Shown here: in pieces, positions 7,875-38,149 of the stretch
How positions within the stretch are numbered: the first letter of the stretch is position 1
Layout: each line of letters starts with the position of its first letter
Origin: Eubacteriaceae bacterium
Lineage (GTDB): Bacteria; Bacillota; Clostridia; Eubacteriales; Anaerofustaceae
DNA: 39,258 nucleotides
Reading direction: 5' to 3'
NCBI GenBank assembly: GCA_017531485.1
Contig: JAFXKY010000005.1
Location: forward strand, 1 to 39,258
Position numbers and translations under genes: made by a program
Notes under the pieces: model-generated
The model's input: only the letters and a program-made list of their open reading frames with translations
Database searches by the model: none
What the model was told of the DNA's origin: nothing

Positions 7875-8375
7875 ATGCAGGAAAGCACTAAAGCACGAAC
7901 AAGCCACAGCACAATCAAAAACGAAGAACTCAAAAGAATTCTTGAAAACATTTTCTATACAGAAGATCTCATTTCCGAACTTACCACCGAACGCGACAGC
8001 CTTAGGTTACTGCTTTCAAAAGAAGGGATCAGATATGAAGACGGAAAGTATGTCCTTCCGCCAAATGCATCTGAGCATGCAACAGCACTCGTTCACGAAG
8101 CGGACAAACTTGATGAGCATATCATCAGAAGCACAAAAAAAATTATTGCAAGACAACGCACAGCAACATCTCTTATCAACTCCGTGAAAGATTACCGCCT
8201 CAGACTTGTCCTCATCAAGAGATTTATCGACAACAAGCCCCTTGACGTGATCTCTTCGGAAATGGGATTTTCCGTACGACACACTCAGCGAATGATCAAA
8301 GAAGCGACGGAACTTATGGAAACAGCATATGAAAAAGAGAAAGAAAAACGATTATCACCCAAAGGCTTTGCCTAA
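7875..8375 (+). CDS. Sigma-70 region 4-like / DUF1492-type HTH regulator
   Basis: This 166-residue protein has a helical, charged N-terminal half (about residues 15-90, coiled-coil-like). The C-terminal helix-turn-helix (about 105-152) resembles sigma-70 region 4, with VKDYRLRLVLIKRFID, then LDVISSEMGFSVRHTQRMI. This arrangement matches small phage-type regulators of the DUF1492/ArpU kind, which I judged from pattern only. It probably binds DNA or RNA polymerase. An AGGAGG site lies 8 bases before the ATG. The gene is monocistronic, with its own consensus promoter and a bidirectional terminator, and no phage genes accompany it. It may be a phage remnant adopted by the host, or a host regulator of similar fold. 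Confidence 0.75.
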   Translation: MQESTKARTSHSTIKNEELKRILENIFYTEDLISELTTERDSLRLLLSKEGIRYEDGKYVLPPNASEHATALVHEADKLDEHIIRSTKKIIARQRTATSLINSVKDYRLRLVLIKRFIDNKPLDVISSEMGFSVRHTQRMIKEATELMETAYEKEKEKRLSPKGFA

Positions 8376-8384
8376 TGTATAAAT

Positions 8385-8407
8385 GGGCAGAATTGGTCAC
8401 TCTGCCC
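8385..8407 (+). other. Hairpin downstream of the HTH regulator gene
   Basis: A 7-bp GC-rich stem (8385-8391 with 8401-8407, 9-base loop) lies just past the regulator stop and ahead of the stronger terminator. No T run follows it directly, so it more likely stabilises the mRNA 3' end than terminates transcription. Confidence 0.4.
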
Positions 8408-8421
8408 GTCTCCTTCTAAAC

Positions 8422-8449
8422 AAAAGATGCGGCTTTTGCCGCATCTTTT
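8422..8449. terminator. Bidirectional terminator between convergent genes
   Basis: A 12-bp stem (8422-8433 with 8438-8449, loop TTTT) has A runs on one side and T runs on the other, so it works in both directions. It separates the plus-strand HTH gene from the minus-strand symporter gene. Confidence 0.9.
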
Positions 8450-8481
8450 GTATTGTATAGGAAACTTATGTAGCATAAAAA

Positions 8482-9960
8482 TTATGCTTCTTCAGCCGGA
8501 GCTGCCATCTGAGCCATAGCTCTTTCAGCGTTTGCCTTAGCGTACATAGCTGCGTCTTCGTCTGTGATCTTGTAGCAGAAGAGTACGAGGGCTGCTGCGA
8601 TGAACATTGTGATTGCCGGGAAGAGTGAGAACCAGAACATGAACGGTCCTTTGATAGCATCTGTGAATGCTGCAACTGCGCCTACGAAGTCGCCTGAAGC
8701 TGCTGTGAGCGTTACGGCGTCGAATCCGATTGCTCCGAGAGCGACAGCTGAAAGTGAACCTGCAAACATTGTAGCGATCTTCATCGGGATGTTGAACATA
8801 GCCATAGCAACCGTTCTGTTGTCCTGACCTGTCTTGTAGTATCCATATTCACCACAGTCGAGGAAGTAGTTGATACCGAATCCTGAGAATACGTTCATAG
8901 CTACTGAGTTGATGCAAGAGAATGCTGTGAAGATATACCACGGTGAGTTGCCTTTGCATACGAAGTATACGCCTACAAGACCTACGCCCCAGAGGCCAAG
9001 ACCTGTAGCGAGAGCTTTTTTCTTACCGAGCTTCATACCGATCTGCGGACCTACAAACGCACCTACGAGAGAAGCGATTGAACGTGCGAGCTGATGGATA
9101 GTATATACGGATGTAAATGTTTCCGGAGTTTTCCAGAACTGGAAGAAGTACATTTCAAATCCTGCTGCGAAGTTGAATCCGAAGTTGTATACTGAGTATA
9201 CGAGGATGAGAACGAGGAGCTGGCTGTTTGTAGCTACTGATTTGAACATGTCAGCTACAGAAACGCCGTTTCCTACTGCCGCCTTTTCAGCTTCTGAGAG
9301 CTTCGGTCTCGGAAGGTCATACGGTTTTGATACGGAAAGTGTGCATCTAGCACCGATGAGGATCGTAAGGCCGAAAATAGCAGATGCTGCGAGGTAACCG
9401 AGCTGTTCGTTGCCTGTTGCGTTGAAGATAGCCGTCTTCAGCGGAAGGATCGTAGCGGATGTAATGATCGTAGCTGCTGCCATCATTCTTGCACCCATGA
9501 TAGACATTCTGTTACGGTCTGTCATTGACGGGCCTGCCATTGCCTGCATGATACCGCTGTTTGCGATACCGAGGATGGAAACGGAGCCGCAGATGAGGAT
9601 GTAACCGAGGATACAGATGAGACCTTTTACGACAGGGCTTCCGATGCTTGACGGTGCTGCGAATGTGATGATCGCACCGGCGAGCATTACATAAGGCATG
9701 AATGTGAACCACCAGCGGTATTTACCTTTGTTTCCGCCGGAATTCTTTTCTACGATAGGTGCGGCGATGATTGAGAACACAAAGTCAGTACCTGTACCGA
9801 TAAGTACGAGAACGCTGAGTACTGCTGCCGGAACACCGAGGTTAACCTGCATGAACATACGATAGTACATAAATGCGGGCATCATTGCTGCGAATGAAGT
9901 CAGACCATACATACAATATTTTACGATCTGGGCATTCGTGAGTCTTGAATCATTTTGCAT
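8482..9960 (-). CDS. GPH/MelB-type MFS symporter
   Basis: This 492-residue, twelve-helix permease resembles the glycoside-pentoside-hexuronide:cation symporter (MFS_2) group. It has an early Asp in a TGTDFVFSIIAAPIVEKN stretch where MelB-type carriers place cation-binding acids, and an internal LGKKKAL loop. The start MQNDSRL at 9960 is chosen because AAAGGAGT lies 8 bases upstream; an upstream in-frame ATG at 10074 would prefix 38 non-membrane residues. It follows the PucR-type regulator on the same strand across a terminator, and a URO-D-family gene lies beyond that regulator. This suggests one uptake and catabolism locus. The substrate is unknown; sugars are typical, but PucR control leaves other small organic compounds possible. 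Confidence 0.85.
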   Translation of the reverse strand: MQNDSRLTNAQIVKYCMYGLTSFAAMMPAFMYYRMFMQVNLGVPAAVLSVLVLIGTGTDFVFSIIAAPIVEKNSGGNKGKYRWWFTFMPYVMLAGAIITFAAPSSIGSPVVKGLICILGYILICGSVSILGIANSGIMQAMAGPSMTDRNRMSIMGARMMAAATIITSATILPLKTAIFNATGNEQLGYLAASAIFGLTILIGARCTLSVSKPYDLPRPKLSEAEKAAVGNGVSVADMFKSVATNSQLLVLILVYSVYNFGFNFAAGFEMYFFQFWKTPETFTSVYTIHQLARSIASLVGAFVGPQIGMKLGKKKALATGLGLWGVGLVGVYFVCKGNSPWYIFTAFSCINSVAMNVFSGFGINYFLDCGEYGYYKTGQDNRTVAMAMFNIPMKIATMFAGSLSAVALGAIGFDAVTLTAASGDFVGAVAAFTDAIKGPFMFWFSLFPAITMFIAAALVLFCYKITDEDAAMYAKANAERAMAQMAAPAEEA

Positions 9961-13153: not shown

Positions 13154-14728
13154 CTATTCTTCCACCTTACTCAGATAATAAATATATGAATCATACAGCG
13201 CATTGAACGATGCGTCGATGACGTCCGTTGAAACTCCGAGAGTTGTGAATGAGCCGATCTTATCGGACTGGGACGTCAGGTTTACTCTTACTGTAGAAGC
13301 GGTCGCACCGTCGGGGTTGACGACACGTACACGGTAGTCCGTAAGCCTGAGCCCTTTAAGGGACGGGAAGAACACTTCAAGCCCCCTTCTGAGTGCTCCG
13401 TCCAGAGCGTTTACAGGACCGTTGCCTTCCGCCGCGGCAAATTCCGTATTTCCGCCAACGTTGACCTTGACCATCGCCGATGCGATATTTTTTTCCGCGC
13501 CGACAGTCTTTTCTCCCATTACGCGATAAAGCTCAACAGTAAAATATTCCTTCACCATTCCGAAAAGATTTTTGACAAGAAGTTCAAAGGATGCTTCTGC
13601 GTTTTCGTACTGATATCCGCTGAGTTCTTTTTCCTTTATGGCATAAAGAACCTTCGCCGCCTTTTCATCGTTTTTTCCGTCAAATGATATAAATTTCCCT
13701 GCCTTCTCAAGAACAGCGCCTTTGCCCGACACTTCACTCAGAAGCAGGTTTCGTCTGTTGCCGACCATTTCGGGAGATATATGCTCAAATGCAGAAGTAT
13801 TTTTCAGTACTCCGTCGATGTGCATTCCGCCTTTGTGTGAAAACGCTGCCTCTCCGATATACGGCGAGGATCTGTTTATTTCCGTTTCACACACTCTCGC
13901 AACAGCCTTTGCATAATCACAGAGATTTTGTATGGACGATACGGGAATGGTGTCATACCCCATCTTATATGTAAGCGTAGGGATAATTTCCGCAAGGGAT
14001 GCGTTTCCGCATCTTTCGCCGAATCCGAGAAGAGTGCCCTGAATATGTCTTGCTCCTGCAGAAACAGAAGTAAGGGTATTCGCCGTGGAGAGCCCAAGGT
14101 CGTTATGAAAATGAACACCTATCATAGTTTCCGGAAAAGTCGTGACGACGTGTTTTACAATATCATAGACTTCGTTTGTCAGTGATGAGCCGTTTGTGTC
14201 GCAAAGCACAAGGCAATCCGCTCCTGCGCTGACGGCACATTCAAGTGCTTTCATTGAATATATGCGGTCTTCTTTATATCCATCGAAAAAATGCTCGCAA
14301 TCGAAATATACTTTATGTCCTCTTTCCTTCAGAAGAGAAAGGCTGTCATATATCATCCTGAGATTTTCCTCGCCGTCCGTTTCAAGTACAGTCCTGACCT
14401 GCGAAAGGGATGTTTTTCCCACAACGCATACAGCTCTGCATCCTGACGTCAGAAGCGCATTGACCGCTTTATCTTCTTCCGCGGATGAATATTTCTTTCG
14501 CGTAGAACCGAATGCTGCGAGGGAAGAACTGCAGTGAACATCTTCAAGCCGCTCAAACAGCTCCCTGTCTTTCGGGTTTGAATATGGGTTGCCACACTCA
14601 ATGATGTGGATTCCGAGGGATGAGAGGATATTTATTATTGATAATTTATCTTCAACTGTAAAGGATATGCCCTCTGCCTGCGCTCCGTCCCGCAGGGTCG
14701 TGTCTAAAATTTCAACGGATCTTGTCAT
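13154..14728 (-). CDS. cimA: (R)-citramalate synthase
   Basis: CimA condenses pyruvate with acetyl-CoA to citramalate, starting the threonine-independent route to 2-oxobutyrate and isoleucine. The 524-residue protein is typical in length. The DRE-TIM metallolyase barrel starts with DTTLRDGAQAEGISF (Arg13, Asp14), then IECGNPYSNPKD, the metal-binding HFHND (His206, His208) and GFGERCGNASL. The C-terminal third (about 400-520) is a LeuA-type allosteric domain. These details fit the CimA group better than LeuA or homocitrate synthase. A GGAGAG site precedes the ATG, and 28 bases separate it from the acyl-CoA synthetase gene, so it is the third gene of the T-box operon. The isoleucine-type specifier in the leader supports this assignment. 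Substrate preference is not proven. Confidence 0.87.
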   Translation of the reverse strand: MTRSVEILDTTLRDGAQAEGISFTVEDKLSIINILSSLGIHIIECGNPYSNPKDRELFERLEDVHCSSSLAAFGSTRKKYSSAEEDKAVNALLTSGCRAVCVVGKTSLSQVRTVLETDGEENLRMIYDSLSLLKERGHKVYFDCEHFFDGYKEDRIYSMKALECAVSAGADCLVLCDTNGSSLTNEVYDIVKHVVTTFPETMIGVHFHNDLGLSTANTLTSVSAGARHIQGTLLGFGERCGNASLAEIIPTLTYKMGYDTIPVSSIQNLCDYAKAVARVCETEINRSSPYIGEAAFSHKGGMHIDGVLKNTSAFEHISPEMVGNRRNLLLSEVSGKGAVLEKAGKFISFDGKNDEKAAKVLYAIKEKELSGYQYENAEASFELLVKNLFGMVKEYFTVELYRVMGEKTVGAEKNIASAMVKVNVGGNTEFAAAEGNGPVNALDGALRRGLEVFFPSLKGLRLTDYRVRVVNPDGATASTVRVNLTSQSDKIGSFTTLGVSTDVIDASFNALYDSYIYYLSKVEE

Positions 14729-16456: not shown

Positions 16457-17023
16457 TTACTGTTTCATTACGATAGCGAGGAATACGCAGTCTTCTCCAC
16501 CTGTCGCGATCATTCCGTGACCACGGGAAGAGTCGTAATATACGCAGTCCCCGGCATTAAGAATCTCAACGTTGTCTTCAAACTGACATTTAAGGCTTCC
16601 TGAGAGAATGTAATCCATTTCCTGACCTTCGTGGGTTGAGAGATGAATGGGTTTATCCTGTTCTTCTTCACTGTAAGGCGCTGTGACGAGGAACGGTTCT
16701 GCGATCTTGTTTTTGAAAAGATATGCAAGATGCTTATATTCAAGGCCGCTTCTTCTCTTTACGGAAAGTCCTTTTCCGTTTCTGATCACGGAATAGAAAT
16801 TCAGCTTCGGCACTTCTCCGATCATAAGTTCTGTAATGTCAATGCCGAACTTTTCAGCACATCTGTAAAGGAAGGTAAACGAAAAGTCTGTTTTTCCTTC
16901 TTCTGCCGCAAGATATTCTTCAACGCTGACTCCTGCCGCAAGAGCCATTTCCTCCGGCGTAAATTCCATGATTTCTCTCATAAACTGAATTCTCTGAGCT
17001 ACCTGCTCGATTACATATTCCAT
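16457..17023 (-). CDS. XRE-family regulator with C-terminal cupin domain
   Basis: This 188-residue protein joins an XRE helix-turn-helix (about residues 8-65, with PEEMALAAGVSVEEYLAAEEGK) to a small cupin barrel (about 110-186, with STHEGQEMDYILSGSLK and LNAGDCVYYDSSRGHG). Such proteins typically sense a small ligand through the cupin. Pairing with an acyl-CoA synthetase gene recurs in Clostridia, to my knowledge. It is the first gene of the operon; GGAGGT lies close before the ATG, directly after the T-box terminator U run. It may autoregulate or tune the same operon according to the acid or its CoA ester, which would layer ligand sensing on tRNA sensing. Confidence 0.92.
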   Translation of the reverse strand: MEYVIEQVAQRIQFMREIMEFTPEEMALAAGVSVEEYLAAEEGKTDFSFTFLYRCAEKFGIDITELMIGEVPKLNFYSVIRNGKGLSVKRRSGLEYKHLAYLFKNKIAEPFLVTAPYSEEEQDKPIHLSTHEGQEMDYILSGSLKCQFEDNVEILNAGDCVYYDSSRGHGMIATGGEDCVFLAIVMKQ

Positions 17024-17038
17024 ATTTTACCTCCTTAT

Positions 17039-17289
17039 AAAAAAATCCGCCTCATTATATCAATGAGACGGAATATACCGCGGTACCACTCAATTTGCAG
17101 ATCACTGCCACTTAGCCACATCCAACAATGTGCTCCCTTTTAACGGTGGGATACCGTTCCCTCTTACTTGATTCAGCGGACTGCTCAGGGGTGATATTCT
17201 CCGGAATTTTTCTTTGTGTCTTGCACCAACCGACACTTCTCTGTAAGGTCCATACCGGGCTTTTGCCCCCATCAATGCATTTGGTTAAT
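17039..17289 (-). promoter_or_regulatory. T-box riboswitch leader, predicted isoleucine specifier
   Basis: The minus strand carries the T-box core GAGTGGTACCGCGG (17078-17091), followed by a terminator stem (17062-17071 with 17047-17056) and a run of seven Ts. Upstream are a Stem III-like hairpin (AACGGT/ACCGTT at 17142-17158) and the distal Stem I with GTGTC/GACAC around GGTTGGTGCAA (17216-17236). The Stem I base is made of GGGG (17266-17270) and CCCC (17188-17191). Aligned on the known pattern of a codon, then A, then the closing helix, the specifier reads ATC (17193-17195), predicting tRNA-Ile. Uncharged tRNA should stabilise the antiterminator and switch on the three-gene operon. The T-box is clear; the specifier is read by eye. 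Confidence 0.93.
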
Positions 17290-17295
17290 AAGCGT

Positions 17296-17324
17296 ATTAT
17301 AAGCCCATGAGTAAACTTTGTCAA
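17296..17324 (-). promoter_or_regulatory. Perfect consensus promoter of the T-box operon
   Basis: On the minus strand TTGACA (17319-17324) and TATAAT (17296-17301) are separated by exactly 17 bases. Strong constitutive initiation is expected, with control left to the T-box leader that follows. Confidence 0.92.
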
Positions 17325-17350
17325 GCTTTTTTCTAAAAATTAAGAATTTT

Positions 17351-18679
17351 TCATTCTGTCCTGAATGTATTCTCTCCGACAGATACTTTCATCATTTCTC
17401 TTTGCTGACCCGTCAAGGCATCAATATACACAAGATATGTTCCTCCGTCGTTCTCGCACAAAAATTCATAACACAGATTCTCATTTCCGCCGTCCGTCGG
17501 AAGATAACAAAGGGACGTACCGGTTACATTCACATTTTCGTGAATATTCCTCCTCGCTTCTTCAACAGGAATTTTGGGTGATACCGATTTGCGGTCGTAA
17601 TAATTCTTATAATAACTGTCTGCCTCATAACCGAGGATCTTGCCGTCTTTCATGGACACCTGTACTGTAAGAGTATCACTCAGACACTTTACCCCTTCAT
17701 GAGAATACGCATACGTCACGGAAAGGATGTTGTTATATACTTCATAATATTCTTCATCCATTCCTTCATGTCCCAGATCCGAAATAAATGCGTCAGCTTT
17801 TGACAGAGCTTCTTTGAATGATATCTTCGACTGATCGGGGTAATTATAAGAAGATGCGGAAATAAGGTTGCCACCTGTCTTTGAATACATTACGTGCATG
17901 GTATTATTTCCATCTGTGGCAGTAAAATAATAGGACGGGAGATTTCCGTTACCTTCCCCTGAATATTCCACCTTCCAGCCATCACCGATATTCTCACTCA
18001 GTCTTTTCATTATCTCATCTTGTCCAACCTCTTCACCGCTGATGGCTTTGTAATCCTTCGGATCGATATGCGAAGAATATTTCCCGTCATAATTCAATTC
18101 CGGAAAATCCTCCGTGCCTTCTCCCATATCTTTCAGGGCAGTGGAGAATGTGTCTTCCGCCTCGGAGAAGTAATGATCTGCATTCATCTTTATCCATTCG
18201 TAATCTTCATGATCCATTTTGTCATAAAACCCGTCAAGGGATTCAAGAAACGTCTGCGATGCAGAAGAAATTATTCTTATGGTGTTTCTCTCATTTTCCG
18301 TAAATACACCTTCCGAAATAAAACTACCGAGGGCGGCTTTTGCGGACTGTTCTCCCTTTGAAAGGATACTCTGAACTTTCCCTGCATATATCTGACTCAC
18401 AGGAAGATGCGAGAGGATCTCCTTTGCGGATGAGGCGTGTTTTATTGCATCGGAAAGCCTCCCTGCGATATACTTATCGTCTTTTGACAGACTGCATTTT
18501 TCAAGGCTGTCACTCATAAGTGCCATATCTTCATAGAACTCCTCGAAATCCGATCTGTATTCCCGCTGAAGGCTGTCGTAAAGCGCTGTCTTTTCAATGT
18601 TGACATTTACAGCCCAGGCAGATGTAATGACGAGAGCGCACAAAAGAAATATAATTATAAGATAGCTTTTCTTGTTCAT
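17351..18679 (-). CDS. ypeB: Germination protein YpeB
   Basis: YpeB is a spore membrane protein needed for stable incorporation and control of the cortex-lytic enzyme SleB. This 442-residue protein has an N-terminal membrane anchor (about residues 4-24), a helical region to about 190 and a C-terminal half with PepSY-type repeats (for example ISFKEALSKADAFISDLG and IPVEEARRNI). Length and order fit the family. It starts 6 bases after the sleB stop, with a GAGGA site, so the two form one operon. Downstream is only an AT-rich stem without a good terminator before the next promoter at 17324. Confidence 0.9.
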   Translation of the reverse strand: MNKKSYLIIIFLLCALVITSAWAVNVNIEKTALYDSLQREYRSDFEEFYEDMALMSDSLEKCSLSKDDKYIAGRLSDAIKHASSAKEILSHLPVSQIYAGKVQSILSKGEQSAKAALGSFISEGVFTENERNTIRIISSASQTFLESLDGFYDKMDHEDYEWIKMNADHYFSEAEDTFSTALKDMGEGTEDFPELNYDGKYSSHIDPKDYKAISGEEVGQDEIMKRLSENIGDGWKVEYSGEGNGNLPSYYFTATDGNNTMHVMYSKTGGNLISASSYNYPDQSKISFKEALSKADAFISDLGHEGMDEEYYEVYNNILSVTYAYSHEGVKCLSDTLTVQVSMKDGKILGYEADSYYKNYYDRKSVSPKIPVEEARRNIHENVNVTGTSLCYLPTDGGNENLCYEFLCENDGGTYLVYIDALTGQQREMMKVSVGENTFRTE

Positions 18680-18685
18680 AATTCC

Positions 18686-19384
18686 TCACTCACAGAAGAC
18701 ATGGCGTCCGATGGTAGTAATTATCGGACGGGTGCGGATCCATTTGTTCGTGGCCGTTACGGGGTTATAGTAATAGATCGCTCCACCCGTCGGGTCCCAT
18801 CCGTTAAGGGCATCTTTCGCCGCCCTTATGCATGATTCATTCGGCGTGAGGTTTATCTGCCCGTCCATCACAGCATCAAACGCTCCCGACTGATATATCA
18901 CTCCCGAAACCGTATCGGGGAATTCTTCGTGATCCACCCTGTTCAGGATCACAGCCGCAACTGCCACCTGCCCTGCATAAGGCTCACCCCTCGCCTCTCC
19001 GTTTATACACCTCGCAAGAAGCATAACCTCCTTACTCTCCGAAGCTGACGTGCTGCCGGAAGATGCTCCCGAAGATGATGAGGACGAACTCCCCGAAGAC
19101 ATTCCGAGCGCCGCATAAGTCTGGTTTCCGACTTTGCCGTCAACTTTAAGTCCGTTTTTTTCCTGAAACTTCTTTACGGCGGTTTCCGTCTTATATCCAA
19201 AGACGCCGTCGACCTCCCCGTCGTAATATCCCCAGTTTTTCAGTTTTGTCTGGATCTGTTTTATGGTCTTTGTATCACTGCTTCCGTAATATATTGTTTC
19301 TCGGGCTGAAATGACAGTGGGAAACACTAAAAACATCACAACTGCAATACACCAAGCGATCATTATTCTTTTACTAAGGTTCAT
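18686..19384 (-). CDS. sleB: Spore cortex-lytic enzyme SleB
   Basis: SleB is a lytic transglycosylase that degrades cortex peptidoglycan during germination. The 232-residue protein has a signal peptide (about residues 1-27) and a peptidoglycan-binding domain (about 38-95, TIKQIQTKLKNWGYYDG). A serine-rich linker (about 97-118) leads to the catalytic Hydrolase_2 domain (about 120-232, LLARCINGEARGEPYAGQVA). The presumed catalytic Glu lies in NGEARGEP. A GGAGGAG site precedes the ATG. A forespore sigma-G promoter is expected, but I could not find a convincing one upstream. Together with ypeB it marks the organism as spore-forming. Confidence 0.95.
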   Translation of the reverse strand: MNLSKRIMIAWCIAVVMFLVFPTVISARETIYYGSSDTKTIKQIQTKLKNWGYYDGEVDGVFGYKTETAVKKFQEKNGLKVDGKVGNQTYAALGMSSGSSSSSSSGASSGSTSASESKEVMLLARCINGEARGEPYAGQVAVAAVILNRVDHEEFPDTVSGVIYQSGAFDAVMDGQINLTPNESCIRAAKDALNGWDPTGGAIYYYNPVTATNKWIRTRPIITTIGRHVFCE

Positions 19385-19480
19385 AATCTCCTCCTTTTTT
19401 CATATCATTTACCGTTTCGGAAAAAATAACCGCTTTTTTTTACAAAATATAAAAATGATCAAATATTTAACGACATAAAC

Positions 19481-19509
19481 TTGACAATCATTAGACGACT
19501 AAGCATAAT
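19481..19509 (+). promoter_or_regulatory. Strong plus-strand promoter with no protein gene downstream
   Basis: TTGACA (19481-19486), a 17-base spacer and CATAAT (19504-19509) match the sigma-A consensus at 11 of 12 positions. All flanking protein genes are on the minus strand, so this promoter should make either a noncoding RNA or an antisense transcript. Confidence 0.7.
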
Positions 19510-19515
19510 AGTGAT

Positions 19516-19785
19516 TATCAATTACGAATACATCCCTTGCATATGCCATTCAAAGCATATATTGTTCGAAATATTGTCATTCGATTTAGAAATCACATCC
19601 TGTCTACGGTAAATATCATTACACGATTAATTAAATATATCTGCACAAAAAAAGCCCCGTCAAAAACGGAGCAGTTTATAACCTGTTTTCCCACCACCTT
19701 ATATGAAGATAATAAGTATTTGCATTTATCGGTTTGCCACTTCATATTCTTCTTGCCGCAACACGGCAAGGGTGGGTCTTTTTTT
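19516..19785 (+). ncRNA. Candidate structured noncoding RNA (family not assigned)
   Basis: A plus-strand promoter lies upstream and a T run (19779-19785) ends the interval. The 3' part folds as a three-way junction. A closing stem CCCACC/GGTGGG pairs 19690-19695 with 19771-19776; an 8-bp arm ATATGAAG/CTTCATAT pairs 19701-19708 with 19740-19747. A 7-bp arm CTTGCCG/CGGCAAG pairs 19752-19758 with 19764-19770. The closing stem followed by T7 also reads as an intrinsic terminator. Because the stems are symmetric, a minus-strand RNA in the 3' region of the dipeptidase transcript is equally possible. I considered 6S RNA but cannot confirm it. The 5' half (19516-19640) shows nothing I recognise. Confidence 0.45.
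19647..19672 (-). terminator. Minus-strand terminator of the dipeptidase transcript
   Basis: A 7-bp stem (19654-19660 with 19666-19672, one G-U pair) is followed on the minus strand by seven Ts (19653-19647). It lies about 110 bases beyond the dipeptidase stop, so the folded region at 19690-19776 would be part of that mRNA's 3' end. Confidence 0.8.
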
Positions 19786-21244
19786 ATTTAAGTTTTTCTC
19801 TCCACGCGATCTTGTTTTCGCGGTCTTTTTTGTCAACGATCTTCAGGGTCGTCTGACGGGCAATATTCCACGAGCGTGCAGCCTGTGAGTGAACGAAATC
19901 CGTAAGGAACACTTTCGCAGCTTCCGGATCAACGCTCTTTATCTTCTTATACGTTTCCCTTACTTCCGGAACGATGACATTCCACTGAGCTTCCTGCTTT
20001 TCGATCTCGTTTTTCACGATCTCATAACCGAAGCTGAAATTCATCTCCATAGTCATATTGAGCATATGATAAGCCCAGTAAGCCCTGTCGTTGTGGCAGA
20101 CAAATTCATTTTCATCCGGATCGAAGTGCGTTCTCTGTGCGGCGGAAACGCTCTGCCATGAATACCCTTCCGGAATTTCCGTAATTCCTGCGAACCATGG
20201 CTGATAAGGGCTTACGCACGGACGGAGAACCGTTCTCCAGATCGTCGTAAGGTCCGGATCATCCTGAAATTCAATGATCATGCTTTCAACTGTCGTATCA
20301 CGACATACTCCATAAAACATATGCGGTGTTGCCGCAGGATCTTCTTTGAGAAGTTCGGGATATTCTATACAGTGTGCGCGAAGGATCGGTTTAATGTCCT
20401 CGACGCCGTATTTTCTCGGGGCTTTGATAAGCGTAGTGCGGTAAGGAAGCTTTTCGCCTGCAATCATTGACCATGCAATGTCTGAACGGTCATGGTTTGA
20501 TTTCACATCACTTCCTTCACCCTGATATGCCTCAGCGTAGTCAAAGTCTGAATAATCGCCTTCATTTTCCGGAGTGTACCATCCGTTTCTGACAGCATAA
20601 CCTACGAGGTCTTCGGACCAGTAAAACTTATTATGTTCCGTATCTGAGAAATCCACTTCGTGAAGAGTGAGCCAGTTGGGAATATAATATATCTCGTCAT
20701 CTTCCACCCTTCTTGCGACGTACTGATTGCCCACAGTAAGCTGCAATACCCAGCCTTCATCCTTGTCCGCGATGTGGTATGATCTTGTGGAACGGTAGCC
20801 GTACTGTTTAATAAGACCTATCGCGACTTCAACGCCTTCCCTTGCGCTTTTCGCTCTTTCGGCGATAAGTCTTCTGAGGCCGTAACCGATGCCTTCTGTG
20901 TGCGGCTCGGAAGATTCTTTTGTTGAAACGCAACTGTCGGAAACCACCGCGACACCCCATTCATTCACAAATCCGTCTGCAAACGCTTCACCGCCCGGGC
21001 AGCGCATCTCGCTCCATAAATATCCCCATGTTTCGGGAACCTGCGGGATCACGGCTGTTCCGTCGTCAAAAGTAAGGACTTCGCCTTCTTTATGGCTCAT
21101 TCTCGGGACTTTATGAATCTGAACGATGCAGTTGATATCATCTTCGCCATGGGCAAGGATGACCCTTCCTGTCTTTGAGGCGTTTTTGCCGACAATGATC
21201 GTGCTGCAGTTATCGGTATTTTCGTTTTTATAGTTTTTATACAT
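19784..21244 (-). CDS. C69-family dipeptidase (PepD-like)
   Basis: This 486-residue enzyme belongs to the N-terminal-nucleophile C69 (U34) peptidases that cut dipeptides. The likely nucleophile is Cys13 in TDNCSTIIVGK, exposed after removal of a 12-residue propeptide. Other family stretches are RVILAHGEDD, NEWGVAVVSDSC, RSYHIADKDEGWVLQ and PYQPWFAGI. There is no signal peptide, so it should act in the cytoplasm. AAAGGAG lies a few bases before the ATG. It appears to be a single-gene unit, with its terminator at 19647-19672. No partner in the neighbourhood points to a specific dipeptide. Confidence 0.9.
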   Translation of the reverse strand: MYKNYKNENTDNCSTIIVGKNASKTGRVILAHGEDDINCIVQIHKVPRMSHKEGEVLTFDDGTAVIPQVPETWGYLWSEMRCPGGEAFADGFVNEWGVAVVSDSCVSTKESSEPHTEGIGYGLRRLIAERAKSAREGVEVAIGLIKQYGYRSTRSYHIADKDEGWVLQLTVGNQYVARRVEDDEIYYIPNWLTLHEVDFSDTEHNKFYWSEDLVGYAVRNGWYTPENEGDYSDFDYAEAYQGEGSDVKSNHDRSDIAWSMIAGEKLPYRTTLIKAPRKYGVEDIKPILRAHCIEYPELLKEDPAATPHMFYGVCRDTTVESMIIEFQDDPDLTTIWRTVLRPCVSPYQPWFAGITEIPEGYSWQSVSAAQRTHFDPDENEFVCHNDRAYWAYHMLNMTMEMNFSFGYEIVKNEIEKQEAQWNVIVPEVRETYKKIKSVDPEAAKVFLTDFVHSQAARSWNIARQTTLKIVDKKDRENKIAWREKLK

Positions 21245-21304
21245 ACCATTCTCCTTTAACGCTCTTTTTAATTACTTTATCATTTAATTCCTGAAAAAGC
21301 AACT

Positions 21305-22537
21305 TTATATTTCAAGAGATATGGAAAGGGCTCTGAGATTTTCCGTAATGTCGAATCGCTCCTTGCTTCCCGGTATGTCCACGCGGAATTTAATCGCAAT
21401 GACCCGTTTGTCTTTCGCGGCAACGAGAAGCTGACTTTCAGCATAATACCCTACATACAGATGATCAAATCTGTCATCGGCGATCTCCCTGAATTCAAAT
21501 ACGGAATTTTCGGTCATGATGTCCTCAACAAGCGGATACGCAAGGGCTCTGAGGCGGAGGATATAAACGTCCGTATCTGACGTCACAAAAAAGTCCGTGG
21601 AATATCCTTCAGTGTTTTCTTTTCCTTCGTAAAAATCCTCATCTTTTAAATACCCGCTTTCCCATATCCTGTAAATATCTTTCGCAAGGGCGGAATTGTC
21701 CCTCCTAACGTGGGAATAGGCATCCACACCATTTATCGCAAACGGTTTTTCAGGCACATAAAACCCGTCGTCTTTACAAAGGATCTCTATGGGAATATAC
21801 GGAAGATCATACCCGATTTCATCAATAGACCTGTGCCATGAACCGGTAAAATTTGAGATAAGGAGCATTATCAAAACTCCGCAGAAGGCAAGGTTTCCCC
21901 AGAAGTCGAAGTATGTCCGGAAACGGCTTTTGTAATTTATCTCGCCGACATTCCTTGCGTCCTGACCTTTCTGAAGGAGGTCTTTTATGTGCTTTATCTT
22001 TTTGTATTTATTTGCGCTTCCGAAAGCGGAAAATATGAGGGATATCACCGCAAGAGGAAGAATGAATGATGCACTTTCCACTAAAAGCAGGGCAGGTGTC
22101 GGGGTAAGGAAATATATTCCGAAAATGCTTCCGAGAAGTAAGACATTATATATCCCCATCCCGACCATATCATTCTTCATGCGCTTTACGATATTTTCAT
22201 ATCCGTAACTTTCGGCGACAGGATCCGTATGCAGTTCAGTATCGTTTTCGCTGTCCGTGCGGTATACTTCATACATATTCCCGAACTTATTGACAAACTC
22301 CCATCCGCATTCTTCGTAATAACACATCTTCTCATGGTCGGGCCATGCGCGGGAAGTGTCGATAGGTTCGATGCGGTAACGGTAAGATATATTGTCCCCT
22401 TTTATGAACACTCCGTATCCAAAGAACTTTTCGAAATGAAGTCCCATAAGGCTCATCTGCCTGAAATACTCTTCAAGAGAGAATATATCCTCATGCTCAA
22501 CGGGAATAAGCTTTCTGACTTTCTTTTGTTTTTCCAT
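21305..22537 (-). CDS. DUF2812-type membrane protein (second copy)
   Basis: This 410-residue protein has a soluble N-terminal domain of the DUF2812 type (about residues 8-100, SLEEYFRQMSLMGLHFEK and YRYRIEPID). Membrane helices follow around 125-175 and again near 215-235, then an extracytoplasmic or soluble C-terminal domain. The start MEKQKKVRKL at 22537 is supported by GAAAGGA upstream; it lies one base from the stop of the preceding gene. The same layout occurs in the neighbour at 22539-23753, with low but clear similarity, so these are an old duplication. Both are governed by the PadR regulator. The molecular role of DUF2812 proteins is not established to my knowledge. Confidence 0.82.
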   Translation of the reverse strand: MEKQKKVRKLIPVEHEDIFSLEEYFRQMSLMGLHFEKFFGYGVFIKGDNISYRYRIEPIDTSRAWPDHEKMCYYEECGWEFVNKFGNMYEVYRTDSENDTELHTDPVAESYGYENIVKRMKNDMVGMGIYNVLLLGSIFGIYFLTPTPALLLVESASFILPLAVISLIFSAFGSANKYKKIKHIKDLLQKGQDARNVGEINYKSRFRTYFDFWGNLAFCGVLIMLLISNFTGSWHRSIDEIGYDLPYIPIEILCKDDGFYVPEKPFAINGVDAYSHVRRDNSALAKDIYRIWESGYLKDEDFYEGKENTEGYSTDFFVTSDTDVYILRLRALAYPLVEDIMTENSVFEFREIADDRFDHLYVGYYAESQLLVAAKDKRVIAIKFRVDIPGSKERFDITENLRALSISLEI

Positions 22538-23754: not shown

Positions 23755-24060
23755 TCATTCCCCTTTCGCATCTTCCACGCATTGAATCAGTCTTTGAAGT
23801 TCTCTCTCGTATGCTTCTCTGCCTTTGGGAGTGAGTTCGTAAGTTCTCTTTCTTCCGACGACGCTTATTTCCTTTACATATTTTTCCTGCTCGAATTTTC
23901 CCAGGATAGTGTAAAGCGTCGCAGGACCGATTATCAGGCGTGAGTTTGTCTTTTTTGAAATATATGCGGCTATATCCGTTCCGCACTTAGGCTCATTTTT
24001 CAGTGCCATAAGTATATAAAACATACTTTCCGTAAGGACATCAAGTGTCTTCTTTGCCAT
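23755..24060 (-). CDS. PadR-family transcriptional regulator
   Basis: This 101-residue winged-helix repressor shows the PadR pattern. It has LTESMFYILMALKNEPKCGT at the start, the wing region LIIGPATLYTILGKFEQEKY, and VVGRKRTYELTPKGREAY. The start MAKKTLDVL at 24060 follows a GGAGGG site; an ATG 30 bases upstream lies within the operator region and lacks one. It is the first gene of a three-gene operon with both DUF2812 genes, separated by a single base from the next. Its promoter is covered by repeated TATTGATAT half-sites, which strongly suggests autorepression. Confidence 0.93.
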   Translation of the reverse strand: MAKKTLDVLTESMFYILMALKNEPKCGTDIAAYISKKTNSRLIIGPATLYTILGKFEQEKYVKEISVVGRKRTYELTPKGREAYERELQRLIQCVEDAKGE

Positions 24061-24291: not shown

Positions 24292-25047
24292 ATGCATAAA
24301 CCGCTTATCGGCCTTGCGCCTCTTATTTATGACGACAAGACAAAAATAAATATGATGATGTATCCGCGTTACACTACGGCAGTAGAATTCGCAGGCGGTA
24401 TCCCCATCATCCTTCCGCTTACTGACAAATATGAAGACATCAAAGAACTCGTTACTGTTCTTGACGGCATCATTCTCACAGGCGGAGAAGACGTAAACCC
24501 GAGTTATTACGGAGAAGAAAAAGAGTCTTTCTGCGGAAAGATCGTTCCGGAACTTGACGCGATGGAAGACGTGCTGTTTAAAGAATCACTCAAGCAGAAC
24601 AAGCCGGTATTCGGCATCTGCCGCGGATGTCAGTTCATCAACGCATCCCTCGGCGGAACACTCTATCAGGACCTTCCCACCCAGCGTCCGTCAGACCTCA
24701 CGCATCAGCTTCCGAGCTCTGACATCCGTTTTTCTCACAAGATCACGGCTGAAGAAGGCTCTCTCCTTCACAGCATCCTCGGAACAACATCATTCGACGT
24801 AAACAGTTTCCATCATCAGGGAATCAAAGATCTCGCACCGGGGCTTGTTCCCATCGGATATGCTGATGACGGACTTATCGAAGCTGTTTATATGCCGTCA
24901 AAGAATTTCGTTTTCGGCGTTCAGTGGCATCCCGAATTCCACTTTGATCATGATCCGATCTCTCAGCAGCTCTTCAAAGGCTTCCTTGATGCTTGCAGAG
25001 AAACGAAGTCTTATGTAAATACGGAAGAATTTATTGAAAATAACTGA
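24292..25047 (+). CDS. Gamma-glutamyl-gamma-aminobutyrate hydrolase-like (peptidase C26)
   Basis: This 251-residue class I glutamine amidotransferase-like hydrolase has the family catalytic triad: nucleophile Cys110 in GICRGCQ, then His213 and Glu215 in QWHPEF. GILTGGEDVNP-like spacing appears as LTGGEDVNPSYYGE. PuuD and related enzymes cleave gamma-glutamyl bonds of putrescine-derived or other gamma-glutamyl compounds in the cytoplasm. No puuABC genes are nearby, so the exact substrate is open. The ATG follows an AAGGAG site. The gene is a single unit between its own regulated promoter and a terminator at 25052, and it is divergent from the padR operon. Confidence 0.88.
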   Translation: MHKPLIGLAPLIYDDKTKINMMMYPRYTTAVEFAGGIPIILPLTDKYEDIKELVTVLDGIILTGGEDVNPSYYGEEKESFCGKIVPELDAMEDVLFKESLKQNKPVFGICRGCQFINASLGGTLYQDLPTQRPSDLTHQLPSSDIRFSHKITAEEGSLLHSILGTTSFDVNSFHHQGIKDLAPGLVPIGYADDGLIEAVYMPSKNFVFGVQWHPEFHFDHDPISQQLFKGFLDACRETKSYVNTEEFIENN

Positions 25048-30057: not shown

Positions 30058-30237
30058 TTATCTTTTATTTCTCTTTTTTCTTGCAGCTTCCTGTTTTTTC
30101 TTTTTCTTTACACTCGGTTTTTCATAATGTTCTCTTTTTCTCATTTCAGACATTATTCCTGCGAGTGCAGTTTTTTTCTTAAATCTTTTAAGAGCGCTTT
30201 CTAAAGATTCGCCTTCTCTGACTTTAACTTCTGACAT
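30058..30237 (-). CDS. rpsU: 30S ribosomal protein S21
   Basis: This 59-residue protein was found by translating the minus strand directly. It begins [19 protein letters not shown] and ends in a lysine- and arginine-rich tail, the full pattern of bacterial S21, which helps the small subunit select mRNA. A purine-rich site (GGAGGGTAGG) lies just before the ATG. A sigma-A promoter (30293-30320) and a terminator (30012-30036) bracket it, giving a short monocistronic mRNA. It lies upstream of yqeY, the conserved order in Bacillota. Confidence 0.96.
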
Positions 30238-36871: not shown

Positions 36872-38149
36872 ATGGAAAGGAAATCATCAGACCTCAATAT
36901 TTTTGCTTTCTGGAAGAAACAGCATGACGCATGGAAGATCACCGTCATCAGAACTTCCCTCGAAAGGCTCGGATATAAGATGGTCTTCCCGTATCTGTCA
37001 CTGTTTGTCATTCTCCTCGGAGCAAACAAAACACAGCTCGGATTGGTCACAAGTGCAGGCCTTATCTGTTCTGCACTCATCGCTCCCCTCCTCGGTCAGA
37101 ACATCGACCGTCACGGTCCCAAGAAGATGTATATCTTCGGAATCCTCGTTCTCCTCGGCGGATACATCGCGTTCTCAGGCGCAAAGATCTGGCAGGTTGC
37201 CGCCCTCGGTATGTTCCTGCATCAGATGGGTGCTACTCTCGGCGGACAATCATGCTCAAACATCTGCGGAAACTGCCTTTCAAACAAAGACCGTGCAAAA
37301 GGTATGCTCGTATGCGAAACACTCGCGGCAGGTGCGCTCGGAATGCTCGGACCGCTGTTTGCAGGCTGGTTTATGGTAAACGTAATGAAAGTTGAAGACA
37401 CCCCTACAAGCCCCGAACAGATCAGACCGCTGTTTTATCTTGCAGTTCTCTTTACTGTAATCTCTCTTGTTCTCATCATCTTCAAGCTCGACGTAAAGAG
37501 CTGGGGAAATGCTGCAAAAGCAAAGAGAAGCGCAATAAAGGACGCATATGCAATGATGAAAGCAGACAAAAACTGCTTCAAATGGGTATTGATGGTCGGA
37601 GTCGGCAGACTTCCCATGGCAATGATCATTCCGTATCTTCAGCTCTATGCGGCTGAAATAAAAGGAGCAAATGCGGAGATCCTTGCGGCAATGACTACTG
37701 CTTCAGCGGTAACAGCCCTTTTATGCGGATATTTCGTAGGAGTCCTCTCTGACAAATACGGCAGAAAGCCTGCCCTCGGAATCAATATCGCCCTTTACAT
37801 CGCAGGTCTTCTCCTTCTCATGTTCGGAAAGAGCGAATTCACCCTCGTAATCGTAGGCATCCTCACAGGTTTCCAGGAAATCGGTCTCACTATCGCAGGC
37901 TCTATCCAGCACGAACTCGTTCCCGCATGGGCAAGAGGAAGATGGTCCGGGGTTAACAGCTTTGTCGGATCAACGGTTTCGGCTGCTGTTGCGGCAATCG
38001 CAGGCATTATTTACGACACAATCGGTCCGCAGTGGCTCTTTATCATTTACATAGCGGCAGAAGTCCTCATCAGACTTCCGCTTCTCATGAGCCTTCCGGA
38101 AACACTCCGTTATGAAGTCAACGAAAATAACTTCGCAGCTCTTAAATAA
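36872..38149 (+). CDS. Major facilitator superfamily transporter
   Basis: This 425-residue, twelve-helix permease has the MFS loop motif between helices 2 and 3 in altered form (GQNIDRHGPKKM) and a clear second copy in the C-terminal half (GVLSDKYGRKPAL). The type resembles drug or metabolite exporters, but the substrate cannot be read. A run of Cys residues (SCSNICGNC, near residues 129-137) in an early helix is uncommon. AAAGGA precedes the ATG. The gene is a single unit with promoter and terminator. The following GNAT gene has its own promoter. Confidence 0.87.
   Translation: MERKSSDLNIFAFWKKQHDAWKITVIRTSLERLGYKMVFPYLSLFVILLGANKTQLGLVTSAGLICSALIAPLLGQNIDRHGPKKMYIFGILVLLGGYIAFSGAKIWQVAALGMFLHQMGATLGGQSCSNICGNCLSNKDRAKGMLVCETLAAGALGMLGPLFAGWFMVNVMKVEDTPTSPEQIRPLFYLAVLFTVISLVLIIFKLDVKSWGNAAKAKRSAIKDAYAMMKADKNCFKWVLMVGVGRLPMAMIIPYLQLYAAEIKGANAEILAAMTTASAVTALLCGYFVGVLSDKYGRKPALGINIALYIAGLLLLMFGKSEFTLVIVGILTGFQEIGLTIAGSIQHELVPAWARGRWSGVNSFVGSTVSAAVAAIAGIIYDTIGPQWLFIIYIAAEVLIRLPLLMSLPETLRYEVNENNFAALK

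Follow-up and report, generated by a model that had tools for sequence, protein, structure and literature searches.

What is encoded in the gap between sleB, a germination gene, and a dipeptidase gene in a member of the Eubacteriaceae? The gap (positions 19385-19783) comprises 399 bases with 33% G+C, and lies on contig JAFXKY010000005.1 in a stretch of 39,258 nucleotides that we analysed as a whole and refer to as the window. A preliminary description of this DNA had noted a near-perfect plus-strand promoter leading to a three-way junction whose closing stem runs into seven Ts, and had offered three readings: an unrecognised small RNA, a divergent 6S RNA, or a dipeptidase mRNA with a structured 3' end. 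It had also placed all flanking genes on the other strand, and indeed ypeB, sleB, the C69 dipeptidase gene and two DUF2812 genes are all minus-strand genes (Table 1). We propose that transcription ends here from two sides, that the plus-strand promoter starts an untranslated RNA of ~270 nt ending at the junction, and that any action of this RNA would most simply be in cis; we put the probability of this reading at a little under one half (about 0.46). The elements are of known kinds throughout, an orphan promoter and two terminators that face each other, and the locus looks like a set of ordinary signals for starting and ending transcription rather than a new class of RNA.

Table 1. Features of the sleB-dipeptidase gap and its neighbourhood, with the promoter-like sites found elsewhere in the window
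Feature	Position	Strand	Basis or assignment
ypeB, germination protein	17351-18679	-	PF14620 above cut-off; TIGR02889 below its cut-off
sleB, spore cortex-lytic enzyme	18686-19384	-	TIGR02869, 297.1 bits, above cut-off
C69 family dipeptidase gene	19784-21244	-	PF03577, 111.5 bits, above cut-off; NCBIfam NF033678 below its cut-off
Putative sigma-70/sigma-A type promoter, TTGACA-N17-CATAAT	19481-19509	+	11/12 consensus match; TTGACA 19481-19486, 17-nt spacer, CATAAT 19504-19509
Predicted non-coding transcript, ~270 nt	19516-19785	+	Promoter and T-run
Predicted intrinsic terminator of dipeptidase mRNA, hairpin 19672-19654 then seven Ts	19647-19672	-	Terminator scan
Three-way junction	19690-19776	+	P1 19690-19695/19771-19776; P2 19701-19708/19740-19747; P3 19752-19758/19764-19770
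Intrinsic-terminator-like end: P3 hairpin, P1 3' strand, T7 (19779-19785)	19750-19785	+	Terminator scan
Promoter-like site	7765	+	Frame beginning at 7875, behind AAAGGAGG
Promoter-like site	17324	-	T-box
Promoter-like site	18600	+	Inside ypeB
Promoter-like site	24127	-	Frame beginning at 23771
Promoter-like site	24224	+	Frame beginning at 24292
Promoter-like site	30320	-	Small frame 30058-30237
Promoter-like site	36796	+	Frame beginning at 36872

A probable promoter and a predicted non-coding transcript on the plus strand

The promoter noted in the preliminary description is present and lacks a single consensus base. When the gap was shuffled 3000 times with its dinucleotides preserved, a promoter matching at least 11 of 12 positions arose in 3.0% of the shuffles on either strand and in 1.5% on the plus strand. 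Across the window, eight promoter-like sites reach this quality, as compared with a mean of 0.91, and at most five, in 100 shuffles. Six of them could be assigned by position to a gene or a T-box, leaving the site inside ypeB and the one in the gap. Given this excess over shuffled sequence, and given that most of the sites are assignable, the plus-strand promoter is probably, though not certainly, real; that about 0.9 promoter of such quality is expected in the window by chance counts against our reading. Judging by the promoter's position, transcription would start near 19516. Scanning 500 nt upstream of the sleB genes of nine relatives, we found no opposite-strand promoter matching at least 11 of 12 positions, which also counts against our reading; one relative has a site matching 10 of 12.

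We also scanned the region upstream of sleB for sporulation promoters, using sigma-factor consensus patterns and allowing at most one mismatch. On the minus strand, the scan returned no site for sigG, sigF or sigE and one sigK-like site; on the plus strand it returned one sigG-like site. An imperfect direct repeat of 16 nt, ATCATTANACGANTAA, occurs at 19487-19502 and 19615-19630, with the first copy inside the promoter spacer; its match count was equalled or beaten (at least two matches) in 16 of 100 shuffles.

A transcript from this promoter would include a frame of 82 amino acids that begins with the ATG at 19543. The frame scores -0.40 bits per codon, as compared with a minimum of 0.03 among 439 gene windows, and at least one of the other five frames scores better; an equally long frame was present in 58 of 2000 shuffles of 19385-19800. 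In a search of 67 genomes, its own apart, a single one gave a partial match (E 0.004), interrupted by two stops, and the best Pfam match (E 0.06) is below cut-off. We rejected a small protein because the codon usage is unlike that of the genome's genes and relatives of the frame are lacking in the genomes searched.

Probable transcription ends facing each other

A second terminator-like end, absent from the preliminary description, lies on the minus strand at 19672-19654, where a hairpin is followed by seven Ts. Its predicted stability is -11.5 kcal/mol on the minus strand and -7.0 kcal/mol in the plus-strand complement, which has C-A in place of a U-G pair; hence, the hairpin is specific to the minus strand. 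A terminator scan of 16500-22000 reported ends on both strands, with 10 sites in this region as compared with 4.5 in shuffles. In the gap, a GC-rich stem followed by a T-run is found on each strand, and these signals suggest that transcription would stop at both. The two ends are ~80 nt apart and face each other. The arrangement resembles facing intrinsic (Rho-independent) terminators in having a perfect GC-rich stem and a T-run on each strand, and differs in that a three-way junction closes the stem on the plus strand and in that there are two separate hairpins rather than one shared hairpin.

Two features argue against a terminator on the plus strand: the T-run does not follow the closing stem directly but after two bases, and terminator stems do not usually take the form of a three-way junction. 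Moreover, 4 of the 22 gene ends in the window have an A-run at the stop codon, which reads as a T-run on the opposite strand, so that the plus-strand T-run taken alone counts for little.

Fold of the three-way junction

The stems of 6, 8 and 7 bp had been described as perfect, and P1, P2 and P3 do consist entirely of Watson-Crick pairs, with 2 nt between the end of P1 and the seven Ts. The sequence of such stems alone cannot choose between the strands; hence, we compared predicted pairing in the two transcripts. In the plus transcript, pair probabilities are 0.84-0.90 for P1, 0.75-0.93 for P2 and 0.96-1.0 for P3. In minus transcripts of four lengths they are 0.96-0.99 for P1 and 0.82-1.0 for the inner five pairs of P3, and P2 falls to 0.26-0.29. 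Thus, in these models P1 and P3 are compatible with both strands; the junction as a whole, owing to the weakness of P2 in the minus RNA, fits the plus strand better.

How unusual the fold appears depends on how it is framed. Excised as a stretch chosen by eye, it has a z-score of -3.64, and none of 200 shuffles was equally stable. A scan of the window in overlapping 106-nt windows on both strands ranks it 40th of 1958, and among folds anchored at T-runs it is 11th of 109 sites (z -2.89). The complete 276-nt transcript is not unusually stable: its z-score is -1.34, and 16 of 200 shuffles reached the same stability. The fold is therefore only moderately unusual, beyond chance yet by its ranks on a par with the window's other terminator-like sites. 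The strongest folds in the scan (z about -9) are at 8348-8510, and are consistent with hairpins between two convergent genes.

A proposed plus-strand RNA that would most simply act, if at all, in cis

Our observations are the sequence signals, the predicted folds and the absence of a coding signal; from these we infer a probable plus-strand RNA with the start and end listed in Table 1. Under the reading we favour, the dipeptidase mRNA would end at an ordinary intrinsic terminator at 19672-19654. On the plus strand, a strong promoter of the housekeeping type would initiate a short untranslated RNA, which would stop at the junction and its seven Ts on reaching the dipeptidase stop codon. The junction would then be a terminator stem and a stable 3' end rather than a ligand- or protein-binding domain. 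By its coordinates, the predicted RNA would be antisense to the dipeptidase 3' UTR over its last ~139 nt (19647-19785). Hence, if the RNA acts, the simplest route for an antisense effect would be in cis, on the 3' end of the dipeptidase mRNA. In having its own promoter, in being untranslated and in its complementarity to the 3' UTR of a neighbouring mRNA, it would resemble cis-antisense or 3'-overlapping small RNAs; it differs from that class in lacking conservation in the genomes searched, and it is predicted here from sequence.

It is quite possible that only the minus strand matters: the gap would then be a dipeptidase 3' UTR with an ordinary terminator, the stems would at most protect the 3' end of the mRNA, and the plus-strand promoter would reflect chance or pervasive transcription. 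The strand-specific terminator, the pairing of P1 and the inner P3 in minus RNA, the rank of the fold among T-run sites and the frequency of A-runs at stop codons all agree with this. The weakness of P2 in minus RNA and the rarity of so good a plus-strand promoter in shuffled gaps (1.5%) argue against it, as do the terminator-like hairpins that most of ten dipeptidase relatives carry, by eye, close to their stop codons. The earlier proposal of a structured dipeptidase mRNA 3' end thus holds in part: a minus-strand terminator is present, and P1 and most of P3 form in the mRNA, whereas P2 largely does not and the junction fits the plus strand better.

Search for homologues

We searched for relatives of the gap at several depths. 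Against 67 genomes of the order (E ≤ 0.001, best 10 or fewer candidates per genome), the gap matched only itself. A BLAST search with 19640-19800 against 391 genomes of the class (best two or fewer candidates per genome) returned the sequence itself and five fragments of 20-29 nt, which we set aside. In a DNA search of the family at E up to 1, short matches were found in 12 of 13 genomes, its own included; the best foreign match spans 28 nt (E 0.002), and we take these matches for chance.

A covariance model built from the single sequence (R1) found itself and two foreign matches, in genomes G044 (E 0.076) and G409 (E 9.1e-5). The R1 genome searches used stricter filters, and the class search kept the best 10 or fewer candidates per genome, so that weak relatives may escape. 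The G044 alignment has several non-standard pairs. The G409 match lacks most of both P1 strands and lies antisense inside a long open frame (locus L067, 1403-2254). We judged both to be chance and rejected them as relatives. Within the window, R1 gave one other row, at 13800 (E 4).

The neighbourhoods of related genes were likewise negative for the junction. Downstream of the dipeptidase gene in ten loci, no junction was seen by eye (in one of these, L026, only ~60 bases are available there) or by R1 at E ≤ 1. At nine sleB loci of relatives R1 found no junction, with a weak row in one (L038, E 1.8). In the genome of the same genus (G001), a DUF2812-like frame directly precedes sleB and ypeB, and no dipeptidase match was found at E ≤ 1e-20. 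By eye, the corresponding gap there differs in sequence; it shows a terminator-like hairpin together with other inverted repeats rich in G+C. Among these 67 order and 391 class genomes, ten dipeptidase loci and nine sleB loci, there was no believable homologue to align for covariation.

The dipeptidase gene itself is patchily distributed. At E ≤ 1e-20 a single genome among the 13 of the family has it, and its relatives at ten named loci share 45-76% identity, including 72-76% with genes of six Oscillospiraceae metagenome-assembled genomes from ruminants. Given this contrast, it was probably acquired in the window's lineage.

The plus transcript is thus a probable, lineage-specific, non-coding RNA, as far as sequence signals indicate. 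For the small RNA suggested in the preliminary description, the promoter, the terminator-like end and the want of a coding signal have held up; no homologue from which covariation could be read was found in the genomes and loci searched. That this RNA is functional and uses its own fold to regulate other mRNAs in trans, or else the dipeptidase in cis, we consider unlikely: the promoter, terminator-like end, non-coding body and complementarity to the dipeptidase 3' UTR would fit such a role, but neither sequence searches nor the single-sequence model found a homologue in the order and class genomes, and there is no independent sign of selection. We regard as more doubtful still the idea that an antisense RNA of recent origin, restricted to the species, lies between the dipeptidase gene and sleB-ypeB, and that its junction terminator lets facing transcription tune the dipeptidase mRNA at its 3' end. 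Should the plus transcript exist, it would add one to the species-restricted small RNAs; its place between a probably acquired dipeptidase gene and germination genes would give it modest interest. Above all, the case illustrates that, where relatives cannot be found, a neat fold behind a promoter in an AT-rich gap does not amount to evidence for a new RNA class. Among the literature titles listed, none concerned this locus.

Known RNA families and mobile elements

Membership of a known structured RNA class, whether 6S RNA, a riboswitch or another Rfam family, is very improbable: beyond general shape nothing points to it, no gap match reached the gathering threshold among 4227 families, and even permissive filters gave nothing better than E 0.88. 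A riboswitch or other Rfam family was rejected on this ground. 6S RNA has the shape of a long rod with a central bubble. The predicted RNA resembles it (RF00013) in being a stand-alone non-coding RNA of 200-300 nt and differs in having no such rod. Contrary to the suggestion of a divergent 6S RNA, RF00013 gave no row in 19380-19860 at E up to 10. We rejected this reading on that ground and because the genome's 6S candidate sits on another contig: the only 6S match in this genome (G000) at E ≤ 1 is G000:C77:1542-1699 (33.1 bits, E 4.3e-5), which is below the 6S cut-off of 46.4. By eye, it aligns closely with the weaker copy in the sister genome (L055). That genome has two 6S-like matches, G001:C35:3231-3409 (L044) and G001:C56:33868-34020 (L055).

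We rejected a mobile or phage origin, since no match was found in plasmids or phages; the exact P3-P1 pattern was likewise absent from viral contigs. A multicopy element was rejected because the genome has one copy, both at E ≤ 0.001 and by covariance model.

The sole gathering-level Rfam match in the whole window is a T-box leader on the minus strand at 17061-17284 (RF00230, 111.9 bits). Its promoter, at 17324, is a perfect TTGACA-17-TATAAT, and the leader precedes a cupin/HTH regulator, an acyl-CoA ligase-like gene and a citramalate synthase gene; it is perhaps an isoleucine T-box.
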